Of a DNA stretch of 35,814 nt, positions 4,129-15,953 are shown in pieces. Position 1 is the stretch's first letter. Each line of letters begins with the position of its first letter. The translations under genes were made by a program, and so were the position numbers. The notes beneath the pieces were generated by a model that saw only the letters and a list, made by a program, of their open reading frames with translations, had not been told where the DNA came from and ran no database searches. The stretch is from a virus: the IMG/VR virus record IMGVR_UViG_3300045999_003867, positions 1-35,814 of that record. One strand, given 5' to 3'.

Positions 4129-4313
4129 TGAGTGAAGAAAATCAAACACCGCCACAAGCTGCGGTTCCAGTCGAAGCTGTTGTTGCATATCTTTCTGACC
4201 TTTACCGTCAGATGGATGCAATCAGTTTTAATATTCGTACAAACATTAACAACATTATGCCTAAGGTAGATGGAGAAGTAACTAATGCCAGCAGCGAAAG
4301 CGAAGTACGCTAA
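4128..4313 (+). CDS. 61-residue hypothetical protein upstream of SSB
   Basis: ATG 4128 is fused to the TAA of the phosphoesterase gene. The product has a Pro/Ala-rich start (TPPQAAVPVEA), one predicted amphipathic helix (YLSDLYRQMDAISFNIRTNINN) and an acidic Ser-rich end. It overlaps the SSB gene by 29 bases. No family is recognised. The overlap at both ends and the lack of an alternative gene here support it being real. Confidence 0.55.
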   Translation: MSEENQTPPQAAVPVEAVVAYLSDLYRQMDAISFNIRTNINNIMPKVDGEVTNASSESEVR

Positions 4314-4767
4314 ACCTTTTGTTACAGGTAACGTAACAGTCAAGTGGTCACATCTTATGACCCCAGACGATAAGTTCGGAAACCCTAATCATTCCGTAAC
4401 TGTTGAGCTTACACCTGAACTGCAAAAGCAGATTCAATCGTCTGTAAAGGAACTTGGTGGTAAGAAGATCAATGGTCTTAAGGATCAAGATGGAATTAAG
4501 ACTATCAAGTTTAAGAATGTTCTTAAGGCCAAGGAAGGTATTCGTACTTTCCCTGTAATTGGTCCAGATACCAAGCCTACAGAGACTGTACCATTTGGTT
4601 CTGATGTTGTACGAGTAAAGGTTACTCCTGCACTTATCAGTCGAGACAATTCAGTCTCTTTCTATATGGAATCTATCCAACTAATTGAACGTAATTATGT
4701 TGGCGGTAATTCAGAATTTACTGATGTAAGCAATAAGCCCATCAGTGATGATGAAATTCCATTCTAA
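4285..4767 (+). CDS. Single-stranded DNA-binding protein (T7 gp2.5 type)
   Basis: The protein is 160 residues. It would coat ssDNA during replication and recombination and recruit polymerase and primase-helicase through its acidic tail. It fits the phage gp2.5-like SSB family: a beta-rich OB-fold body beginning PFVTGNVTVKWSHLMTPDD, a central KEGIRTFPVIGPD segment, and a C-terminal acidic tail ending DDEIPF. A terminal aromatic residue after acidic residues is the functional signature of gp2.5. It sits directly before the resolvase gene, as ssb precedes endonuclease I in T7. Read from ATG 4285, inside the preceding gene, with AGATGGAGAAG upstream. Confidence 0.88.
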   Translation: MPAAKAKYAKPFVTGNVTVKWSHLMTPDDKFGNPNHSVTVELTPELQKQIQSSVKELGGKKINGLKDQDGIKTIKFKNVLKAKEGIRTFPVIGPDTKPTETVPFGSDVVRVKVTPALISRDNSVSFYMESIQLIERNYVGGNSEFTDVSNKPISDDEIPF

Positions 4768-4777
4768 TAGGTGACTC

Positions 4778-5170
4778 ATGATGGAGTATAAGTTCCCAAT
4801 CAATCCCGTTGCTGCTTCCCGTCCACGGGTCAGCAAGTTCGGTGCATATTTCACGGGACCTTATAAGAAGTTCCGCTCGGCTGCTGCTATTATAATTAAT
4901 AGAGTACTCGGGCGAAACTTTACTCCACTGAGTGGCAAACTTGCAGTAGATATTAAGTGCTATGTAACAAGACCAAAGACAACTAAACTAGAATATCCAA
5001 AAGCTGATGTAGATAATTACAGTAAGTCAATTCTAGATTCGTTAAATGGTAAGTTGTGGGATGATGACTCCCAAATCATTGCTCTGTTTATTTCAAAACA
5101 ATGGGCAGAGCCAGGTGAAGAGGGATATTTCCTAGTTGCTATAGAGGAAATTAAAGTTGAATATCACTAA
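4778..5170 (+). CDS. rusA: RusA-type Holliday junction resolvase
   Basis: The protein is 130 residues (Escherichia coli RusA about 120). RusA cuts four-way DNA junctions symmetrically. The active-site pattern is visible: KADVDNYSKSILDSL with Asp77, Asp79 and Asn80, followed by LWDDDSQI with Asp95-Asp97 (E. coli RusA Asp70, Asp72, Asp91). The N-terminal SRPRVSKFG segment is also typical. It occupies the slot where T7 carries endonuclease I, just after SSB, so it presumably resolves replication and packaging intermediates here. Two adjacent ATGs (4778, 4781) follow AGGTGACTC; either could start it. Confidence 0.9.
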   Translation: MMEYKFPINPVAASRPRVSKFGAYFTGPYKKFRSAAAIIINRVLGRNFTPLSGKLAVDIKCYVTRPKTTKLEYPKADVDNYSKSILDSLNGKLWDDDSQIIALFISKQWAEPGEEGYFLVAIEEIKVEYH

Positions 5171-5657: not shown

Positions 5658-5732
5658 GGAAGGGTGCCTGATATCGGTAAAAGGTGGTCACTTATAATGG
5701 CCCTCATGTGGGTTCGACTCCCACCCCTTCTA
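5658..5732 (+). tRNA. tRNA-Ile, anticodon UAU
   Basis: A complete cloverleaf can be drawn. The acceptor is GGAAGGG/CCCTTCT (5658-5664, 5725-5731; first pair G-U). The D-arm CCT/AGG has a loop containing GG. The anticodon stem is GGTCA/TGGCC with loop CTTATAA. The variable loop is CTCAT, the T-arm GTGGG/CCCAC with loop TTCGACT, and the discriminator A. The anticodon TAT (5693-5695) reads AUA. Bacteria usually decode AUA with a CAU tRNA modified to lysidine, so a direct UAU tRNA is unusual. CCA is not encoded. Confidence 0.9.
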
Positions 5733-5745
5733 CATAACAATAATC

Positions 5746-7211: not shown

Positions 7212-7216
7212 TTCTT

Positions 7217-7290
7217 ATCCTCATAGCTCAACTGGATAGAGCAACAGCCTTCTAAGCTGTAGGTTGCTGGTTCAAGTCCAGCTGAGGATG
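7217..7290 (+). tRNA. tRNA-Arg, anticodon UCU
   Basis: A perfect cloverleaf: acceptor ATCCTCA/TGAGGAT, D-arm GCTC/GAGC with GG in the loop, anticodon arm ACAGC/GCTGT with loop CTTCTAA (anticodon TCT), variable AGGTT, T-arm GCTGG/CCAGC with loop TTCAAGT, discriminator G. It decodes AGA and AGG, which are frequent in the AT-rich late genes. CCA is not encoded. Confidence 0.95.
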
Positions 7291-7322
7291 TATTTTAAAA
7301 TTTCTTTTTAAGGAGAACTAAT

Positions 7323-7787
7323 ATGGACTGGACTATGTATATTGCTATTGGACTTTGTGTACTTACAATTGGATCACTAGTGATGAACTACTTTAACTAT
7401 GTAGAGATTAAGAATCTACGGGCAAAGGCATGTGATAACAGCAATAGAATTGATTATCTAGATCGTAGATGCATTCAGGATCTTAATAATACCGATGCTA
7501 GACATCGTATGGTTAGAGATCAAGTATGTGGTATTTTTGATACTCTAAAGTATAGTTATCTTAATAAAAAGGACATTGAAACAATGTGGGATATTCACAA
7601 TGCACGGGTTAATTCCTATTATGATGAAATGACTCGTCAAGGTACTGTCCTACATCGACTTGAACCTATTGCAGTTCTTGCTGATAAGTTTGACATCAAG
7701 CGTAAACTAAAGTATAATAAAGAACATGCCGATGATCTTAAGTTTGATCTTAAGGAGATTGAAAATGAACTCAAGGAACTTGCTTGA
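7323..7787 (+). CDS. Membrane-anchored coiled-coil protein, 154 residues
   Basis: ATG 7323 follows a strong AAGGAGAACTAAT site, the first gene after tRNA-Arg. Residues about 5-23 (MYIAIGLCVLTIGSLVMNY) form one hydrophobic membrane segment. The rest is charged and helical, ending in a likely coiled coil (DDLKFDLKEIENELKELA). The layout, a short N-terminus outside and a long helical domain in the cytoplasm or the reverse, is compatible with a phage membrane or superinfection protein. No family is recognised. It is too far from any lysis gene to call a spanin. Confidence 0.6.
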   Translation: MDWTMYIAIGLCVLTIGSLVMNYFNYVEIKNLRAKACDNSNRIDYLDRRCIQDLNNTDARHRMVRDQVCGIFDTLKYSYLNKKDIETMWDIHNARVNSYYDEMTRQGTVLHRLEPIAVLADKFDIKRKLKYNKEHADDLKFDLKEIENELKELA

Positions 7788-7971
7788 CATCTTGGAAAAT
7801 GCGGTTGACTGTGACCCATCAAGTTCGTACCACTCTGGGTACACAGCAAAAGAAATTCACCGTAAGTGTATTGCCCATATTAAACTACTGGATCAAACCA
7901 TTCAAACATTGCTAGCGGAGCGCGATAGCCGTGCTTATAGCTTAGGATGGGGAAAGGGTAAGGATGAATAA
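7765..7971 (+). CDS. 68-residue hypothetical protein
   Basis: The start is set at ATG 7765, preceded by AAGGAGATTGAAA, which is coding DNA of the upstream gene. The product is mostly helical (AKEIHRKCIAHIKLLDQTIQTLL) and ends LGWGKGKDE. Pattern and size are those of a small accessory phage protein. Function unknown. It overlaps both neighbours (23 and 8 bases). Confidence 0.55.
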   Translation: MNSRNLLDILENAVDCDPSSSYHSGYTAKEIHRKCIAHIKLLDQTIQTLLAERDSRAYSLGWGKGKDE

Positions 7972-8107
7972 GGAACTTACAGACAAAGAACAAATGTTGT
8001 ACAACCAAGGTTACAGACTTTGTGGTTTGTGTGGTTGTTGGGATTATCCCGTAAATCATCATGACGATTGTTCTATTTGTGCAAAGGCTCAATATGGAGA
8101 TGAATAA
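7964..8107 (+). CDS. 47-residue zinc-finger-like protein
   Basis: ATG 7964 lies inside the end of the preceding gene, after GGGTAAGG. The product contains CGLCGC, then HH, then CSIC: two CxxC knuckles about 15 residues apart with histidines between them. This fits a small treble-clef or zinc-ribbon domain. Such mini zinc fingers bind nucleic acid or proteins. No specific family is recognised. Its end overlaps the first gene of the GC-rich array by 14 bases, so it marks the left border of the accessory block. Confidence 0.6.
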   Translation: MNKELTDKEQMLYNQGYRLCGLCGCWDYPVNHHDDCSICAKAQYGDE

Positions 8108-8465
8108 TGACATCGTTGCGCGGCTGCGCGCCCTAAAAAACGCAATGGATGAATGCGGGTTTACAGGGATTTCCGCCGTGACTAATGCTGCCGCCGACGA
8201 GATCGAACGGCTGCGCCGTGACTACTCATGCATCTGCAATGAAATGCGCCGCATGATGGAGGAGCGCGACGAGGCGAGGCGGCTCCTGAAGGCTGTCGTT
8301 GACATGATGCGTGACAACATGGCTCACGATGCAACGCACCCGCATCACCTGTGCGACTTCATCCACCGCCCCGACATCGGCATGTGCAAGGTGTGTGAGG
8401 ATTGGACGGATGCAATGGTGATGTGCTACCCCGATGATTTTCAGGACGAGGAGGAAACCAAATGA
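8094..8465 (+). CDS. Array gene 1: coiled-coil protein with Cys/His C-terminal region
   Basis: The protein is 123 residues from ATG 8094 (AAAGG six bases upstream); ATG 8100 is an alternative. It has the arrangement DIVARLR...AADEIERLR...ERDEARR, a helical module frequent in phage hypothetical proteins and repeated in several genes of this array. The C-terminal part has HPHHLCDF and CKVCEDW with a further Cys, a possible metal site. Codons are strikingly G/C-ending. It terminates EEETK, with the DNA GGAGGAAACCAAATGA providing ribosome-binding site and start for the next gene. Function unknown. Confidence 0.65.
   Translation: MEMNNDIVARLRALKNAMDECGFTGISAVTNAAADEIERLRRDYSCICNEMRRMMEERDEARRLLKAVVDMMRDNMAHDATHPHHLCDFIHRPDIGMCKVCEDWTDAMVMCYPDDFQDEEETK
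8190..8210 (+). repeat. 21-base exact repeat, second copy at 10075-10095
   Basis: Both copies encode the AADEIER stretch of the helical module, in array gene 1 and array gene 8. The identity is 21 of 21 bases, followed by one mismatch and TGCG. A related 18-base exact match encoding ERDEAR lies at 8262-8279 and 9563-9580. The copies show recent duplication or recombination among the array genes. Confidence 0.85.
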
Positions 8466-8683
8466 TTGAATACAAATGGAAAGAACTAAAAGACAAGCGG
8501 CTACTGCTGACTGACAGGATCACAAGAATCAAACGCAGCGAATGGACGCTGCTTGAAATCTCTCCAAACAGCAAGGTGGGAAAGTTCCGCAACGAACTTG
8601 CCGACACCTGTTTTTGGACTGACCTTGATGATCTCGTCGTGATGGATGTGCTTCACGACATGTACAAGGAGGAAACCAAGTGA
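8462..8683 (+). CDS. Array gene 2: 73-residue hypothetical protein
   Basis: ATG 8462 is fused to the upstream TGA (ATGA), with GGAGGAAACCAA before it. The product is a small mixed alpha/beta protein (YKWKELKDKRLLLTDRITRI, then TLLEISPNSKVGKFRN). It lacks the DEIERLR module. It ends MYKEETK, using almost the same C-terminal codons as array gene 1, and these codons form the next gene's ribosome-binding site. Function unknown. Confidence 0.6.
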   Translation: MIEYKWKELKDKRLLLTDRITRIKRSEWTLLEISPNSKVGKFRNELADTCFWTDLDDLVVMDVLHDMYKEETK

Positions 8684-8919
8684 ACGAACACGATGCCATC
8701 GCAAGGATCAAGAGACTGTCTCACAGCATCAACTGTGCCGATGAGATCGCAGAAGTGATTGAGCGGCTAATCAAGGAGCGTGATGAGTTACGCTGCGAGG
8801 TTTGTGATTGGGTGGGCAACCACTTCAAGGAGCCACCGCAGGATGTAGCAAAGAGAAACGGCTGGGACTGCTTTGATACGGGTGTTTGGGACTGCTTCAA
8901 GGAGGACACCGATGTTTGA
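8680..8919 (+). CDS. Array gene 3: helical protein with doubled WDCF tail
   Basis: It is read from GTG 8680, overlapping the upstream TGA, with AAGGAGGAAACCAA upstream. The 79 residues contain IARIKRL...ADEIAEVIERLIKERDELR and then a tail NGWDCFDTGVWDCFKEDTDV in which the WDCF motif occurs twice. The duplication is exact over 11 bases, TGGGACTGCTT at 8863-8873 and 8887-8897, 24 bases apart. The second copy leads into the AAGGAGGACACCGATG junction. Function unknown. Confidence 0.62.
   Translation: MNEHDAIARIKRLSHSINCADEIAEVIERLIKERDELRCEVCDWVGNHFKEPPQDVAKRNGWDCFDTGVWDCFKEDTDV
8863..8897 (+). repeat. Tandem duplication of the WDCF-coding sequence
   Basis: TGGGACTGCTT occurs at 8863-8873 and 8887-8897 with a 24-base (8-codon) period, in frame in array gene 3. 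Only the second copy is followed by a functional-looking ribosome-binding site. Confidence 0.85.
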
Positions 8920-9118
8920 GTTCCGCCGTGGCAACTACGAACAGAAGAGCAGACAGATTCTTGAAGCCACGGAGGGCTTGAGCAGCACCAACATGGAGGG
9001 AACTCATCTGATTGAGTGCCTTCGATCACAGTTGTCGGCTGTCACCGAAGAGATGGAGCGGTTGCGTTTCGGGTGGGAGTGCTACAAGAACTACAAGGAG
9101 AACACCAATGCCCGCTGA
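8912..9118 (+). CDS. Array gene 4: 68-residue helical protein
   Basis: ATG 8912 follows AAGGAGGACACCG. The product has the EEMERLRFG remnant of the helical module and ends GWECYKNYKENTNAR, a degenerate and slightly expanded form of the GWDCFKENTND tail. The tail's DNA carries the exact AAGGAGAACACCAATG junction for the next gene. Function unknown. Confidence 0.58.
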   Translation: MFEFRRGNYEQKSRQILEATEGLSSTNMEGTHLIECLRSQLSAVTEEMERLRFGWECYKNYKENTNAR

Positions 9119-9437
9119 ATACGACACCAACCGAATGACCCCACGACAGCGCAAGGATCTCAACCGCAGCAAATTGCTTTACGATCTTGCGATTCCTTTT
9201 CTGATCGTGGGAATGGCAGCATCCCTGATTGTTGTTGGCTGTGATGACAATCGATACAGGAATCGTTATAGGCAAGAGGAAAGATCATCTTCACAATGGG
9301 ATACTCCTGTGAATGATCCCAATCAGCCAAAGCCACGGCGGTCCAACAGACCAAGGCGTGATGACAATGAATCATCTCGCATTTATAACGGATTCACCAA
9401 TAGCACTACTGGACCCTCCGGTGGATTGCTTCGATAG
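9108..9437 (+). CDS. Array gene 5: small putative lipoprotein or membrane protein
   Basis: The protein is 109 residues from ATG 9108; Met10 is an alternative start. A basic region (RQRKDLNRSK) is followed by a hydrophobic stretch LAIPFLIVGMAASLIVVGC with a lipobox-like VVGC at residues 42-45. After it comes a hydrophilic, Asn/Pro/Arg/Ser-rich, low-complexity chain. This fits a lipidated protein exported across the inner membrane, an outer spanin or superinfection-exclusion type, but no partner gene is visible. The stop is in another frame than the retained WDCF-type tail DNA (see findings), so this gene seems to have been spliced into the array. Confidence 0.55.
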   Translation: MPAEYDTNRMTPRQRKDLNRSKLLYDLAIPFLIVGMAASLIVVGCDDNRYRNRYRQEERSSSQWDTPVNDPNQPKPRRSNRPRRDDNESSRIYNGFTNSTTGPSGGLLR

Positions 9438-9448
9438 GGAGAACATCG

Positions 9449-9766
9449 ATGACTGACCCATGCGAAGGTAAGTATGACATTGTTTCCCGTCTGCGCGATC
9501 ACACCAACCGCGATGATAACGACATTGCGGAAGCCGCAGCCTACATCGAAAGGCTCCGCGCCGAGCGCGACGAGGCGAGGAGATATTCTTGCGATCTAGA
9601 AGCACGGATCATCGTGCTTGAGGAGGATCGTCGTGATACATCAAATAAATTTGGTACGAATCCCTGTTCAGAGATTATTCTGCCAGACTATCCTCTTGCA
9701 AGAGAGCCTAAAGAGATCGCAAAGCGCAAGGGATGGGATTGCTTCAAGGAGAACACCAATGACTAA
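9449..9766 (+). CDS. Array gene 6: helical module plus copied ribonucleotide reductase peptide
   Basis: ATG 9449 follows AGGGAGAACATCG. The 105 residues comprise DIVSRLR and AAYIERLRAERDEARR (residues about 11-46), then RRDTSNKFGTNPCSEIIL (residues about 61-78), then PLAREPKEIAKRKGWDCFKENTND. The middle segment is the active-site signature of class I/II ribonucleotide reductases and matches FGTNPCSEIIL of the reductase at 15946 exactly in protein. It cannot be an active enzyme at this size. The protein is best described as a chimera of array modules and a reductase fragment. Function unknown. Confidence 0.62.
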   Translation: MTDPCEGKYDIVSRLRDHTNRDDNDIAEAAAYIERLRAERDEARRYSCDLEARIIVLEEDRRDTSNKFGTNPCSEIILPDYPLAREPKEIAKRKGWDCFKENTND

Positions 9767-9995
9767 AAATAAAACCATCAAGACTGATACCGAGACAATC
9801 ACTAAGATTTCTGACTTTGTTTGGGAACTCTCTACTGAGATGGATGCCATTAAGGATCAGATGGAGGTTTTGCAACTTCGTATGCTTTCTGTTCGCAAGA
9901 TGCTACAGATAATGGAAGACCCCAAGAACGGAACCGCACAAGACCATGCCACCCGACGCGGCTGGGACTGCTTCAAGGAAAACAACAATGATTGA
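9759..9995 (+). CDS. Array gene 7: 78-residue helical protein with GWDCFKENNND tail
   Basis: ATG 9759 is embedded in the upstream tail codons, after AAGGAGAACACCA. The product is Lys/Thr-rich at its start, then a helix (ISDFVWELSTEMDAIKDQMEVL) with heptad-like spacing, and ends HATRRGWDCFKENNND. Base composition is closer to the rest of the phage than in array genes 1-5. Function unknown. Confidence 0.6.
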   Translation: MTKNKTIKTDTETITKISDFVWELSTEMDAIKDQMEVLQLRMLSVRKMLQIMEDPKNGTAQDHATRRGWDCFKENNND

Positions 9996-10443
9996 CGAGA
10001 TGCCAAAGGACATCGTAAAGGAACTTCACATCCGCGCTGCTATTGAACAGATTTCTGGAACTCTCTTTGAACAAGCCGCCGACGAGATCGAACGGTTGCG
10101 GAAAGAACTCGGTCAGGTAAGTAATGCAGACTCTTGGGTTTCAGAGACAGATGCTGCATATCTTGACAATCTGTTGAACTGGTGTGAGTTTAACGCAATG
10201 GATTGGCATCGTGCATTGCAAAGACTCGTAAACGACCGCGCTAGACTCCGAAATGCATTACGTCTTGAGCAAGAAGAGTTAGCCGCATGTTGTATTGATC
10301 GAAAAGAAACACAGCGAGAACGAGACGAGGCGAGACGAGAAGTCTGTCATCTTGTTGCTGAACTAGCTATGATTAATCATACTTCGGTTACTGTAGAATC
10401 AATTGCAGAAGAATATGGATGGGATTGTTTTAAAAATGTGTAA
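9988..10443 (+). CDS. Array gene 8: 151-residue coiled-coil protein, last of the array
   Basis: ATG 9988 follows AAGGAAAACAACA. The protein has AADEIERLRKEL near residue 30, encoded by the 21-base repeat shared with array gene 1, a middle with Trp/Asp-rich helices, RERDEARREVCHL near residue 115, and ends EYGWDCFKNV. Here the tail is followed by no gene, only a hairpin and tRNAs, and the tail DNA lacks the AAGGAG core. Tail and ribosome-binding site are therefore separable. Function unknown. Confidence 0.62.
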   Translation: MIDEMPKDIVKELHIRAAIEQISGTLFEQAADEIERLRKELGQVSNADSWVSETDAAYLDNLLNWCEFNAMDWHRALQRLVNDRARLRNALRLEQEELAACCIDRKETQRERDEARREVCHLVAELAMINHTSVTVESIAEEYGWDCFKNV

Positions 10444-10474: not shown

Positions 10475-10556
10475 GGCTTCGTGGCGGAATCGGCATACGC
10501 AGCGGACTTAAAATCCGTAGCCGCAAGGCGTGGGGGTTCAAGTCCCCCCGAAGCTA
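10475..10556 (+). tRNA. tRNA-Leu, anticodon UAA
   Basis: An 82-base class II tRNA. Acceptor GGCTTCG/CGAAGCT (first pair G-U), D-arm GCG/CGC with GG in the loop, anticodon arm GCGGA/TCCGT with loop CTTAAAA (anticodon TAA), variable arm GCC-GCAA-GGC, T-arm GGGGG/CCCCC with loop TTCAAGT, discriminator A as expected for Leu. Decodes UUA/UUG. CCA is not encoded. Confidence 0.95.
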
Positions 10557-10559
10557 CTC

Positions 10560-10632
10560 GCCCTTATAGCTCAGCTGGTAGAGCAACCGACTTTTAATCG
10601 GTTGGTCGCAGGTTCGATCCCTGCTGGGGGCA
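10560..10632 (+). tRNA. tRNA-Lys, anticodon UUU
   Basis: Acceptor GCCCTTA/TGGGGGC (two G-U pairs), D-arm GCTC/GAGC, anticodon arm ACCGA/TCGGT with loop CTTTTAA (anticodon TTT), variable TGGTC, T-arm GCAGG/CCTGC with loop TTCGATC, discriminator A. It lies three bases after tRNA-Leu. Decodes AAA/AAG, abundant in the many Lys-rich phage proteins. CCA is not encoded. Confidence 0.95.
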
Positions 10633-10656: not shown

Positions 10657-12375
10657 ATGGAAACTGAATCAAAGGTAGTATCGCGTAAACGCTGCCCCAA
10701 GTGTGCAGCACAAGGTAATGACACATCAGGTAATAACCTAGCCGTATATGATGACGGCCACAGTTATTGCTATGCTTGTGAATATTATATCAGAGGAAAC
10801 AAGATGGAAGTACCAATCGTTGAAGACACACCAACATACACATCAGAAAAGTTCCGTACTGGTGAGATCCAGGCTCTACCACACCGACGAATTAACGAAA
10901 AAACTGTTAGACAATATGGATACCAGACAACAAGTACTGGAGCCGAGGTCGAGTCTTTCTACCGTGCGGATGGCACACTACAGGCTCAACACATCCGATA
11001 CGATGGCAAGAAGTTTGCATGGATCGGAGACACCTCAAGCCTCCAGTTCTATGGTCAACAACTCTTTCCTAGTGGTGGCAAGAGGCTTCTCATTACCGAG
11101 GGAGCTATTGACTGTCTCACTATGGCCCAACTCTTTGACAACAAATACCCAGTTGTCTCCATCCCAAATGGAGTTAACTCAGCTGTAAAGTGTGTCAAGG
11201 ATAACTATGAGTATGTATCATCATTTGAAACCATCGTACTTTGCTTCGATATGGATGATCCAGGACAAAAGGCTGCCCGTGACGTGGCAGAAGTATTGCC
11301 ACCTGGAAAGGTCAAGATCATGTCCCTGCCACGCAAGGATCCGAATGAAATGCTGGTACATGCCGAGTCTGCTCAACTACTGCAAGCATACTGGAATGCA
11401 AAGACTTTCTCACCCGATTCAATCCTACATGTCTCACAGATTGTATGTGAGAATGAAAACTCTAGTGTTCAAGTCTATGAGTATCCTTGGGACTCCTTGA
11501 CTACATTCATGATTGGTCAAGACTCTGGCAGACTTAATCTTTGGACATCAGCAACGGGTCACGGCAAGTCCACTATCATCAGAGAGCTTGTTGTTGATCA
11601 TCTCAATCATGGTCGTGCTGTCGGTGCTGTGTTCCTTGAGGAATCTCCAGAACAAACGGTAGACGATCTTATCTCACTTAGTATTGGCAAACCAGTTCGC
11701 AAGATTATGTCTCAACGTCAACTTAACGAACTACGCAAGTCTAACAACAAAACTACTGTTGACATGGTAGAAGATAATCTTACAGAAGAAGAATATGCAA
11801 AAGCTAAAGCAGAAATTTCCAGCAAGCCTCTGTATCTTTATGATCACATTGGCAACGCTAACATTTCTAATATCATTAATCGTCTTGAGTATATGGCTGT
11901 TGGTCTTGATTGTAAAGTCATCTTTCTTGACCACATTACTTTGCTTGGTAATATGCTCTTATCTAGTGGTACTGATTATGGAAACGATGAAAGACTAGTG
12001 CTTGACTCTGTTATGAAGAAACTACGCGAATTAGTAGAGCGTACAGGAGTTACACTACATGTCATTGCACATATCAAGAAGACAGATAAGAATGTTGATG
12101 AAGGTGATCGAATTAATCTCAATGACCTTCGTGGCTCAGGTTCTCTTGCTCAGATCTCTGATAATGTCTTTGCATTAGAGCGTAATGCACAACATCCAGA
12201 CCCAGCAACCGCTAATACAACCAATATCCGTGTTCTCAAGAACCGTAAGGGTGGTCGTAGAGGTATTGCTACGGCACTGTTCTACAATGACCAAACAGCC
12301 AAGCTTATGGATGTACCATTCGTAGTAACCCCTGAAGGAGAGGTTTTGTATCGTTATGATGAACTTAGTGTTTGA
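10657..12375 (+). CDS. T7 gp4-like DNA primase-helicase
   Basis: The protein is 572 residues (T7 gp4 566). It unwinds the fork 5'-3' and lays primers for lagging-strand synthesis. N-terminal zinc ribbon: Cys13, Cys16, Cys38, Cys41 (CPKC...CYAC). TOPRIM primase core: EGAID (Glu148, Asp152) and CFDMDDPGQ (Asp198, Asp200), then PRKDPNEML. RecA-like helicase: Walker A ATGHGKST (Lys304), Walker B VIFLDHITLL (Asp425), the AHIKKTDK histidine block and DLRGSGSLAQISD with an Arg-finger-like region LERNAQ. The start ATG 10657 follows TAGGAGTAAT. It overlaps the polymerase gene by 20 bases. Confidence 0.98.
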   Translation: METESKVVSRKRCPKCAAQGNDTSGNNLAVYDDGHSYCYACEYYIRGNKMEVPIVEDTPTYTSEKFRTGEIQALPHRRINEKTVRQYGYQTTSTGAEVESFYRADGTLQAQHIRYDGKKFAWIGDTSSLQFYGQQLFPSGGKRLLITEGAIDCLTMAQLFDNKYPVVSIPNGVNSAVKCVKDNYEYVSSFETIVLCFDMDDPGQKAARDVAEVLPPGKVKIMSLPRKDPNEMLVHAESAQLLQAYWNAKTFSPDSILHVSQIVCENENSSVQVYEYPWDSLTTFMIGQDSGRLNLWTSATGHGKSTIIRELVVDHLNHGRAVGAVFLEESPEQTVDDLISLSIGKPVRKIMSQRQLNELRKSNNKTTVDMVEDNLTEEEYAKAKAEISSKPLYLYDHIGNANISNIINRLEYMAVGLDCKVIFLDHITLLGNMLLSSGTDYGNDERLVLDSVMKKLRELVERTGVTLHVIAHIKKTDKNVDEGDRINLNDLRGSGSLAQISDNVFALERNAQHPDPATANTTNIRVLKNRKGGRRGIATALFYNDQTAKLMDVPFVVTPEGEVLYRYDELSV

Positions 12376-14532: not shown

Positions 14533-15163
14533 TGGTAAGGGTCGGGTAGGTAAAACTACCCTAGCCCATTTAATTGCCAAGTATTCTTTAGATCTTGGTT
14601 ACAATCCTATTATTCTTCCTTTTGCTGCAGCTATTAAAAAGATGGCAGAAGAACAAGGAATTACAAAAGAATCAGATTCTTCTAAGTATCGGGAATTTTG
14701 TCAAGAACTTGGAGCATCTAAGCGAGCAGAAAACTCTGAGTATTGGATTATCAAAACCTTTGAAACATTGCAAGAGTATATGTTAAAGGAAATTGATAAC
14801 AAACAAAATGTTAGATCAGATTTTGAATATGTTATTATTCAAGATGACGTTCGTTATATGAATGAATTAGCATTTGGTCGTGACCTTGCAGCTACACAAA
14901 TCTTTGTTTCAGAAGATGATCGAAATCTTCCTGAGCACAATGCTGAGTGGCGAAACCACGAAAGCGAAGACCTTGCTAACAATTATGAAAAATCTTTTAC
15001 AAAAACTTTAGCAAACAACTATGAAGATTTATTTGACATTGTTGTATTTAATGGTGAATCAACAAAGGAACTTGAAAGTTTTGTAAAAAGTAATATTAAA
15101 GATTGGTTAGACATTGGGTACATTGAATTAGAAGAAATTGGAGACTTTGATGAAACCAACTGA
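14513..15163 (+). CDS. P-loop deoxynucleoside monophosphate kinase-like protein
   Basis: The protein is 216 residues from ATG 14513 (AGGAGATTCATA upstream); a longer frame to 14471 lacks a good start. Walker A is SGKGRVGKTT at residues 7-16. The segment VIIQDDVRYMNE is typical of phage dNMP kinases, which convert dTMP, dGMP and 5-substituted dCMP to diphosphates. The rest is helical with an acidic C-terminus. Position between polymerase and exonuclease/reductase genes fits a role in dNTP supply. Substrate range cannot be read from the sequence, and other P-loop kinases remain possible. Confidence 0.78.
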   Translation: MRIIQISGKGRVGKTTLAHLIAKYSLDLGYNPIILPFAAAIKKMAEEQGITKESDSSKYREFCQELGASKRAENSEYWIIKTFETLQEYMLKEIDNKQNVRSDFEYVIIQDDVRYMNELAFGRDLAATQIFVSEDDRNLPEHNAEWRNHESEDLANNYEKSFTKTLANNYEDLFDIVVFNGESTKELESFVKSNIKDWLDIGYIELEEIGDFDETN

Positions 15164-15953
15164 AGCAATTCTTGATGGTGACATCATTGCTTATCGTGCA
15201 GCCTTTTGGGCAGACTCTGAAGGCATCGAAGATCTTCCAAGTCGTATTAATTTAGATATTAAAAACTGGACGCCAGAAGGCGTTGATACAGTTTATATTG
15301 CTATGTCTTGTCCAAGAACACATAACTTTCGTAGGGTGTTCTGGCCTGCTTATAAACAACACCGTGATGATTTCAAATCACCTGAATCTATGGGAGTTGC
15401 TTTAGAATGTATTTACGATATACCAAATACCACAGTACGTTGTGTCAATCACCTAGAAGCCGACGATCTTATTGGAATGCTGGTGTCAGAAGGCAGAGCA
15501 ATAGGGGTAACGGTGGACAAGGATCTTCGTCAGATTCCGGGATGGCATTGGAATCCAGACAAGGAATCCGAGCCAGTCCAGGTATCTGGCGAAGAGGCCG
15601 ATAAGTATTTCTATCAACAATGGATGACTGGAGATACTACAGATAATATCTGGGGTCTTTGGAAAGTTGGACCAGCTAAAGCTAAAAAACTTCTTGATAA
15701 TACTCCAAAAGAAGAATGGGATAATATTATTATGGATATGTATCAAAACGAGGATTGGGCTAAACGTCCTGAAAACAAACGCCCATTAGAAATGTATCGT
15801 AAAGATTTTGCCCTGTCTCAAGCTAGATGTGTTCGTATCTTAAGAGCAGGAGATTACAATAAAGAAACGTCTGAAATTACCCTATGGGGTCCAAATAACC
15901 TTGCAGTTAGAAACATTTTAGACTTAGAGAAGGGAGTCATAAGAGATGAGTAA
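15150..15953 (+). CDS. 5'-3' exonuclease (T7 gp6-like, FEN/PIN fold)
   Basis: The protein is 267 residues from ATG 15150 with TTGGAG seven bases upstream. It would remove RNA primers and degrade host DNA 5'-3'. Acidic metal ligands occur in family order: ILDGDIIAY (Asp9, Asp11), LEADDLIG (Glu103, Asp105, Asp106), VDKDLRQIPG (Asp123, Asp125) and TGDTTDNI (Asp162, Asp165), followed by a helix-3-turn-helix GLWKVGPAKAKKLL. T7 gp6 is about 300 residues. It overlaps the kinase gene by 14 bases and the reductase gene by 8. Confidence 0.92.
   Translation: MKPTEAILDGDIIAYRAAFWADSEGIEDLPSRINLDIKNWTPEGVDTVYIAMSCPRTHNFRRVFWPAYKQHRDDFKSPESMGVALECIYDIPNTTVRCVNHLEADDLIGMLVSEGRAIGVTVDKDLRQIPGWHWNPDKESEPVQVSGEEADKYFYQQWMTGDTTDNIWGLWKVGPAKAKKLLDNTPKEEWDNIIMDMYQNEDWAKRPENKRPLEMYRKDFALSQARCVRILRAGDYNKETSEITLWGPNNLAVRNILDLEKGVIRDE

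Follow-up and report, generated by a model that had tools for sequence, protein, structure and literature searches.

A phage-wide family of small modular genes, probably shuffled by recombination at short coding tracts

Upstream of the primase gene of a T7-like phage lies an array of eight small genes that are probably built from exchangeable parts. The window analyzed here is the whole 35.8-kb virus record IMG/VR IMGVR_UViG_3300045999_003867 (35,814 nucleotides [nt]), a T7-like contig in which Pfam and PHROG searches found a single-subunit RNA polymerase, a gp2.5-like protein, a primase/helicase, a PolA-type polymerase, a 5'-3' exonuclease, and RusA. The array occupies 8094-10443, shortly upstream of the primase and between tRNA-Arg and tRNA-Leu, and consists of eight overlapping open reading frames (ORFs), whose start codons we assigned from the ORF list. 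G+C content (GC) is 0.46 to 0.51 in 600-nt windows over the array and 0.29 to 0.44 elsewhere, with the sole exception of 10801-11400 (0.47). Two short tracts recur. A1, a 21-nt tract close to GAGCGCGACGAGGCGAGGCGG that encodes ERDEARR, lies mid-gene, and the tail GWDCF lies near the C terminus and leads into AAGGAG. We call the part before A1 N and the part between A1 and GWDCF M, and relatives are given by locus label (Lnnn). The array genes are as follows:

8094 to 8465, plus strand: gene 1, ORF with N-part, A1, and a C-part without the GWDCF tail, ending ..EEETK
8462 to 8683, plus strand: gene 2, ORF ending ..YKEETK
8680 to 8919, plus strand: gene 3, ORF with a GTG start, a degenerate A1 (ERDELRC), and a double tail, NGWDCFDTGVWDCFKEDTDV
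8912 to 9118, plus strand: gene 4, ORF with tail GWECYKNYKENTNAR
9108 to 9437, plus strand: gene 5, ORF, membrane- or lipoprotein-like by eye, no family match
9449 to 9766, plus strand: gene 6, ORF, canonical unit with a long M that holds a ribonucleotide-reductase-like peptide
9759 to 9995, plus strand: gene 7, ORF with tail GWDCFKENNND
9988 to 10443, plus strand: gene 8, ORF, canonical unit and last of the array, tail GWDCFKNV without AAGGAG

Gene 1 starts at ATG 8094 or ATG 8100. The A1 tracts, with the nearby edges of blocks shared with relatives, are the following:

8262 to 8282, plus strand: A1 of gene 1, GAGCGCGACGAGGCGAGGCGG; block edges 8260 and 8281
8776 to 8796, plus strand: degenerate A1 of gene 3; block edge 8787
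9563 to 9583, plus strand: A1 of gene 6; block edges 9559 and 9563
10318 to 10338, plus strand: A1 of gene 8; the window is colinear with L236 again from 10319 on, over 9.3 kb

The exact 18-mer GAGCGCGACGAGGCGAGG occurs at 8262 and 9563, and a near copy occurs at 10318. Between the genes lie the junctions:

8446 to 8464, plus strand: junction 1/2, ribosome-binding site and start; block edges 8449 and 8455
8662 to 8682, plus strand: junction 2/3, shared junction sequence; block edge 8663
8887 to 8914, plus strand: junction 3/4, WDCF tail, AAGGAG, and start; block edges 8887 and 8904
9074 to 9110, plus strand: junction 4/5; block edge 9110
9432 to 9451, plus strand: junction 5/6, shared junction sequence
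9734 to 9761, plus strand: junction 6/7; block edges 9744, 9750, and 9759
9963 to 9990, plus strand: junction 7/8, shared junction sequence; the nearby edge 9995 is 1 nt outside tolerance

The seven starts between array genes have a 20-nt junction in common. Mean pairwise identity of the seven is 0.63, against 0.41 among 24 other putative starts that we picked in the window, and 1 of 20,000 random sets of seven reached that value, which bears out the original prediction of eight overlapping genes joined by near-identical junctions. It had also read GWDCFKENxND at the end of the three longest junctions. Those at 9734 and 9963 do end that way (GWDCFKEN[TN]ND), but the one at 8887 reads VWDCFKEDTDV after NGWDCFDTG. 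Nor does the conserved tail hold throughout the array. Gene 5 ends SGGLLR and stop in its own frame, with tail-like DNA in another frame (PPVDCFDRENIDD, then stop), and gene 8 spells GWDCFK in other codons, lacks AAGGAG, and has no start directly after it; tRNA genes follow. At the end of gene 3, two WDCF tails stand in succession, 24 nt apart (8860-8904). Both the double tail of gene 3 and the out-of-frame tail DNA at gene 5 are consistent with junction exchange.

The same layout is found throughout the IMG/VR relatives: a variable N-part, A1 (ERDEARR), a variable M of 16 to 63 amino acids (aa), and GWDCF with AAGGAG, after which the next gene starts in overlap. A degenerate GWDCFK[ED] pattern, an ERDEARRE pattern, and the exact A1 18-mer were each found in at least 119 stretches of viral contigs, and the prevalence given by these scans is a lower bound. 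An in-frame A1-type motif precedes 109 of 131 GWDCFK[ED] matches within 85 residues. Some of the 84 ERDEARRE matches in newly fetched loci are unrelated proteins. The exact 18-mer leads to WDCF in the same ORF in 86 of its 166 occurrences in fetched loci, and the remaining 80 lie in ERDEAR-frame ORFs of at least 70 codons, many of them other coil-like proteins. We note that the 18-mer also precedes other recurrent C-terminal modules without GWDCF (for example, ELAQQMSESNQVL.., QQLRIAVGLLS.., and EQNAKLRDIAERAI..), several of which end KE.AK, in L318, L321, L330, L340, L320, L354, L335, and L351. Judged from these sequences, the exchange pool may be larger than the GWDCF family.

We cataloged 219 units in 163 loci with A1, then an M of 16 to 63 aa, then GWDCF, and in 179 of the 219 GWDCF ends 3 to 8 residues short of the stop. 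The catalog demands A1 and GWDCF in one ORF, so that genes with one of them lost are missed and two of the eight window genes are included. Codon statistics for A1 and the tail rest on 204 distinct units that predate the exact A1 scan. A later catalog of 240 units (224 distinct), which includes loci found via the exact 18-mer and in which A1 identity is inflated for a synonymous-site comparison, is the basis of the GC, AAGGAG, primase-control, colinear-pair, sample-recurrence, and substitution-rate counts. In L126 and L135, some ORFs consist of two fused units, and in these another ERDEAR motif comes after an internal GWDCFKE or GWDCFKD. We aligned two window proteins with 85 of 114 candidate relatives; the consensus of these 87 units is L..ERDEARRE.C..(M)..A..RGWDCFKE, in which A1 has an invariant E, R, D, and R and the tail an invariant W and C. 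A model of the last 69 aa of gene 8 shows one long and one short helix with the tail after them (predicted local distance difference test 96; predicted template modeling score 0.72), and the tail may fold back on the A1 helix.

A1 is conserved at synonymous sites. The commonest A1 21-mer, GAGCGCGACGAGGCGAGGCGG, makes up 39 of 170 ERDEARR tracts, against a frequency of 0.0002 predicted by the codon usage of the same genes. The three Arg positions each prefer a different codon, with CGC at 75% in the first place, AGG at 57% in the second, and CGG at 50% in the third, and therefore general codon preference is not the explanation. The Glu directly after A1 is GAG or GAA at 53/47, near the background of 50/50. 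The 21 nt of A1 are sharply delimited and are kept across phages of differing GC.

The tail behaves differently in its two parts. Within KE, the codon for K is AAG in 97% (background, 71%) and that for E is GAG in 94% (background, 50%), and KE is present in 120 of 169 terminal tails but in 9 of 35 extended ones. Of the 198 tails that a start follows, 123 contain AAGGAG, as do 5 of the 26 that no start follows (Fisher, 4e-5; 224 distinct units), and in 111 of the 123 it lies 5, 7, or 8 nt ahead of the next start. These counts support the proposal that AAG GAG serves as both codons and ribosome-binding site, and KE probably is mostly ribosome-binding site. A similar site, TAAGGAGAAC, stands ahead of the start at 7323, outside the array junctions. 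For GWDCF, by contrast, the synonymous excess is small (identity, 0.902 observed versus 0.853 expected), although D, C, and F each favor one codon (72, 85, and 83% versus 52, 58, and 52%). Moreover, GWDCF is found in extended tails in 35 of 204 units and in tails without a following start in 26 of 224, counts that prove existence and not the frequency of motif loss, as the catalog demands the motif. Given the small excess and the extended and uncoupled tails, GWDCF looks mainly like a protein-level motif. The tail had been proposed as a possible shared DNA module, with its synonymous sites as a check; that proposal is not supported as stated, since the tail does not seem to be kept mainly as DNA. 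We rejected a tail kept purely as DNA, as GWDCF is also spelled in other codons and stands where no start follows.

N and M are nearly unlinked. N is at least 70% identical in only 15 of 89 unit pairs whose M is at least 80% identical in DNA, and M is at least 80% identical in only 14 of 75 pairs whose N is. As a control, same-size windows in 71 primase genes were linked in 4,145 of 4,656 pairs. More than one N cluster accompanies 28 of 31 multimember M clusters, and more than one M cluster accompanies 28 of 29 multimember N clusters. Nine M families with at least three members and at least two N contexts were tested among 64 loci with sample numbers; for six of them, at least one N-M combination was seen in more than one metagenome.

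Block edges are enriched at A1 and the junction. In the window array, 14 of 20 distinct internal block edges fall in anchors, which were set by hand and make up 15.1% of the array, and 12 of 10,000 circular shifts reach that. With same-locus pairs excluded here and in the substitution-rate comparison, 80 M-sharing matches between contigs end on the left in the A1 core (43), in the 45 nt before A1 (21), further out (10), or at a contig edge (6) and on the right in GWDCFK (18), in the cap or junction (41), beyond it (10), or at a contig edge (11). Colinear contigs, defined as pairs in which a cassette-sized gap is flanked on each side by at least 250 nt at 80% identity, gave 65 pairs, with one gap taken per pair and edges within about 8 nt merged; L234, L237, and L239 (the same contigs as L064, L182, and L094) and L255 were omitted. 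In these, an anchor is no more than 6 nt away for 46 of 104 distinct edges, against a mean fraction of 0.113 and a maximum of 0.202 in 500 rounds in which edges were shifted by 40 to 250 nt. Both edges are at anchors in 17 of the 65 pairs and at least one in 45.

Individual pairs give the same picture at closer range. Within 5.5 kb at 92% identity, L008 and L036 differ at M, and each M is found in another background, in L076 and L119; this is the one same-different-same pair under the thresholds used. In L023, 881 nt that are absent from L029 lie between two junction repeats identical at 22 of 23 nt. L029 has the left flank of one L023 junction and the right flank of a later one, with the joint inside the 23-nt tract, and the matching flanks are short (327 nt at 99.7% and 253 nt at 100%). 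The window has 2,347 nt where L236 has 408, and the blocks end at 7971, the stop of the upstream ORF, and resume at 10319 in the A1 of gene 8. Whole-cassette gain or loss at junctions, which the original prediction had offered as a check, was thus found in L023/L029, L240/L260, and L253/L249, and the L236 difference runs from a gene stop to A1. Its cassette shuffling was largely right, but the unit is often a half-gene, with exchange inside genes at ERDEARR. It had listed the internal helical repeat and had not treated it as a second exchange point, though the strongest DNA-level conservation and many edges are found there. Whole-gene shuffling alone was dropped as exchange at A1 inside genes is common.

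Blocks of the array genes match separate relatives. From A1 on, gene 1 (8262-8455) is 99.5% identical to L041 and 91.8% to L230 and L322, and 8260-8904, from the A1 of gene 1 to the AAGGAG that ends gene 3, is 95.7% identical to L023. The body of gene 2 is common to L339 (8449-8652, 90%) and L021 (8468-8654, 93%). Gene 3 matches L286 from junction to A1 (8663-8787, 97%) and L261 over 8772-8904 (98.5%), where the left end is the contig edge of L261. Gene 4 matches L027 junction to junction (8887-9110, 86.6%). Gene 6 matches L253, L286, and L023 from A1 to AAGGAG (9563-9751, 93 to 97%; edges 9548-9563 and 9751-9759), and gene 7 is identical to L023 over 9719-9998 and to L029 over 9744-9996 (100% each). 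The M of gene 6 contains a reductase-like FGTNPCSEIIL (9649-9681) that matches the reductase gene of this phage (15946-17862) at 85% over 33 nt and a stretch of L238 at 94% over 32 nt, and this M with the reductase-like fragment is also present in L023, L253/L255, L286, L094/L239, L263, and L264. Judged from the fragment in gene 6, M modules may capture pieces of unrelated genes.

Searches gave the family no name. Window proteins had no Pfam match at the cutoff and a best PHROGs E value of 0.0037. The 87 aligned members had one match each to two unnamed PHROGs (best E value, 0.0001) and to three NCBIfam models (best E value, 0.0036), none of which names the family. The best PDB match was a Prp19 chain (E value, 0.0009), with no named family. 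A fold search found no solved structure at an E value below 0.001, and its four best viral models were uncharacterized proteins of uncultured Caudovirales (E values, 0.14 to 0.88). In cultured phages, gene 1 and one canonical unit had no match, and gene 6 matched 109 records, the 20 listed of which are annotated as ribonucleotide reductases. A host origin was considered and rejected; there were 27 matches to bacterial genome contigs, with an ERDEARR-type motif upstream in L126, L132, and L135, which are metagenome-assembled genomes (MAGs).

We consider it probable that small accessory genes, mostly helical in product and often in coupled arrays, form a phage-wide pool and are shuffled by recombination at short anchors within their coding sequence. 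A1 and the tail-junction tracts would serve as short homologies for phage recombination, and homologous or annealing recombination between them in coinfection would be the simplest reading. Two crossovers, one at each tract, would exchange a gene or half of one while the reading frame and the translation start are kept. A1 and GWDCF would form the conserved base of a helical hairpin with M as its tip, such that one M could pair with many N. Units in GC-poor contigs (flank GC, 0.25 to 0.38; n = 21) have a mean GC of 0.50, as expected for genes that arrive from a common pool. Candidate recombination factors are encoded in the window:

4285 to 4767, plus strand: T7 gp2.5-like single-stranded-DNA-binding and annealing protein (phrog_112, E value 4.6e-8; no Pfam match at E 0.01)
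4778 to 5170, plus strand: RusA-type resolvase (Pfam RusA, E value 2.5e-20)
15138 to 15953, plus strand: 5'-3' exonuclease (phrog_107, E value 2.1e-39)

Primase/helicases and DNA methyltransferases are commonest among 87 neighbor proteins of relatives, which were drawn from 110 listed of 314 neighbor ORFs after 23 were dropped by hand as apparently antisense to units or as repeat primase. The 87 also include one T7-type single-stranded-DNA-binding protein and one RecT, which lies beside a unit in one relative, and two HNH endonuclease families match two neighbor proteins each. Other RNA genes found by tRNA search in the window are the following:

5658 to 5733: tRNA-Ile
7216 to 7291: tRNA-Arg
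10475 to 10557: tRNA-Leu, directly after the array
10560 to 10632: tRNA-Lys, after tRNA-Leu

The tRNA-Leu and tRNA-Lys genes are near-identical in many relatives despite differing gene content upstream. What the array proteins do can only be guessed. They may be dispensable early or middle host-interaction factors, a guess made because their place adjoins replication and methyltransferase genes.

Several observations weigh against recombination at the anchors. No crossover was directly observed in the contig comparisons, 58 of the 104 edges of colinear blocks lie away from the anchors as defined, and conserved tracts draw alignment ends toward themselves. Edges of this kind could also arise with no recombination at the tracts if selection favored intact modules. 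For the recombinase role there are candidate genes. M is under purifying selection and shows no accelerated change; among module pairs of at least 80% identity from different loci, the ratio of nonsynonymous to synonymous substitution rates (dN/dS) is 0.16 for M (111 pairs) and 0.32 for N (82 pairs), and positive selection on M was looked for by this measure and not found. Unit GC tracks flank GC (r = 0.70, 180 units), and thus many units are adapted to their carrier phages and the pool effect is partial. Among the 79 units whose loci did not come from the GWDCF scan, AAGGAG occurs in 19 of 69 coupled and 0 of 10 uncoupled tails, which is not significant (P = 0.107), and a single lineage accounts for four of the five AAGGAG tails that are uncoupled (L040, L050, L089, and L093). 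Primase relatives with 2.3 kb or more of upstream sequence number 32; within the 4 kb that the count covers, 21 of them have no cataloged unit, 6 have one, 4 have two, and 1 has five (L253 and L255, the same array, were both counted); four of the 21 (L232, L247, L248, and L254) have a gene with a WDC[FY] tail upstream and no cataloged A1. Finally, three of the nine tested M families have no N-M combination that recurs in two samples, and the relatives are metagenomic contigs or MAGs.

Joints might lie at A1 and the tail for another reason. Random illegitimate recombination could have produced them, with A1 and GWDCF only structural and joints seen there because only recombinants cut at module borders work. 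The variation at GWDCF synonymous sites and the motif without a following start agree with this, as do the compact fold with conserved ends suggested by the model, purifying selection on both M and N, and the 58 edges off anchors. We nonetheless consider it unlikely, as the position-specific synonymous conservation of A1 is unexplained by protein selection, L023 and L029 differ by exactly the stretch between two near-identical repeats, and tail-like DNA persists out of frame at gene 5. From these sequences we infer that recombination happened at the tracts, rather than that recombinants survived there. Perhaps the mosaics are instead chimeras, made when assembly joined reads of different phages at short repeats. 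The relatives do come from metagenome assemblies, and contigs L094/L239, L111, L243, L261, L263, and L264 end inside the array region. Assemblers, however, usually break at such repeats and do not join there. Moreover, N-M combinations recur in separate metagenomes for six of nine families, the modules are under purifying selection, and the swaps lie within hundreds to thousands of colinear bases and would need two false joins close together. Chimeras therefore seem very unlikely.

It is highly improbable that these are conventional coupled early genes that arose by duplication and divergence of a single ancestor and have their ribosome-binding site in common. Coupling of neighboring genes is a known general mechanism, as far as the available part of one source goes (PMC12548453), and the site before 7323 is similar to that of the junctions. 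Divergence from one ancestor cannot, however, place M modules of 80 to 100% identity on unrelated N-parts, and it leaves unexplained the gene-content differences between colinear relatives with anchor-enriched edges. A dedicated site-specific element that moves cassettes by an integrase, transposase, or reverse transcriptase is scarcely credible. In its favor, A1 is sharp-edged and kept across phages of different GC. Against it, the neighbor families listed (25 of 38 from Pfam and 25 of 90 from PHROGs) include neither an integrase nor a transposase nor a reverse transcriptase, A1 is unlike the junction, and the five inverted repeats in the array are weak and none spans a junction. As regards a diversity-generating retroelement, the observation is the same: those listed families contain no reverse transcriptase. 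Cassettes as sigma-70 promoter or stem-loop units were dropped as well. A scan of the array for sigma-70-type promoters found 4 sites versus 3.0 expected, and one for terminators found 3 terminator-like sites versus 2.4 expected; none is at a junction.

Recombination at the anchors resembles several known systems in part. Modular shuffling at promoter-early stem-loop motifs (PeSLs) was reportedly described by Arbiol in 2010 and Comeau in 2014. PeSLs are composite promoter-terminator (stem-loop) motifs in T4-type phages that, in the accessible part of the source, are held to mediate gene shuffling (PMC4503421). To that extent the array is alike, with short repeats as the proposed sites of shuffling between related phages. 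Its anchors, however, are coding and show no sigma-70 promoter or terminator enrichment, exchange is also seen inside genes, and the array phage is T7-like by its RNA polymerase, gp2.5-like protein, primase/helicase, and PolA-type polymerase. Conserved boundary sequences as exchange sites for phage modules are an old idea, and in the portion available of the paper that treats it, Island3 gp67 and gp68 share 18 C-terminal residues and about 50 bp of DNA in an Island3/Brujita event called the first of its kind described in mycobacteriophages (PMC3029335). That event likewise would be homologous recombination at short shared sequences near gene edges, with a tail much as here, whereas in the array family the same two tracts recur in many contigs and one is mid-gene. 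Short conserved DNA at module borders is present in the array, and edges are enriched there in colinear relatives (46 of 104 versus 0.113), with 58 of 104 elsewhere. As in coupled genes generally, the coupled tails carry a putative internal Shine-Dalgarno sequence in the upstream gene at workable spacing, but general translational coupling, unlike the array, involves no exchange of the coupled genes. Polymorphic toxins also combine a constant part with an exchangeable C-terminal module, by general knowledge and by the part available of one source (PMC3482391); here, no toxin family is among the matches, N and M both vary, and the constant parts are short tracts. A literature search, mostly without subscription papers, found no description of the GWDCF/ERDEARR family or of mid-gene coding anchors. 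Exchange at boundary sequences is known, but recurring two-tract, mid-gene coding anchors appear new within the literature searched.

Why do these arrays matter? Most phage mosaic borders are without shared sequence, and how modules move is an old open question, so far as the available portion of one source covers it (PMC3029335). Array borders are short, recurrent, and recognizable, and they lie inside coding sequence that can be recoded without protein change. Thus, the question of homology versus selection becomes directly testable. The arrays are, moreover, a widespread phage accessory gene family, unnamed in Pfam, PHROGs, NCBIfam, and PDB searches. More tentatively, A1 and the tail-junction may be kept as true exchange sites, in which case synonymous sites of A1 would be kept alike because lineages that keep them draw on a common half-gene pool. 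If that possibility is true, different phages would share one decentralized, coding-compatible cassette platform, with half-genes held in common.

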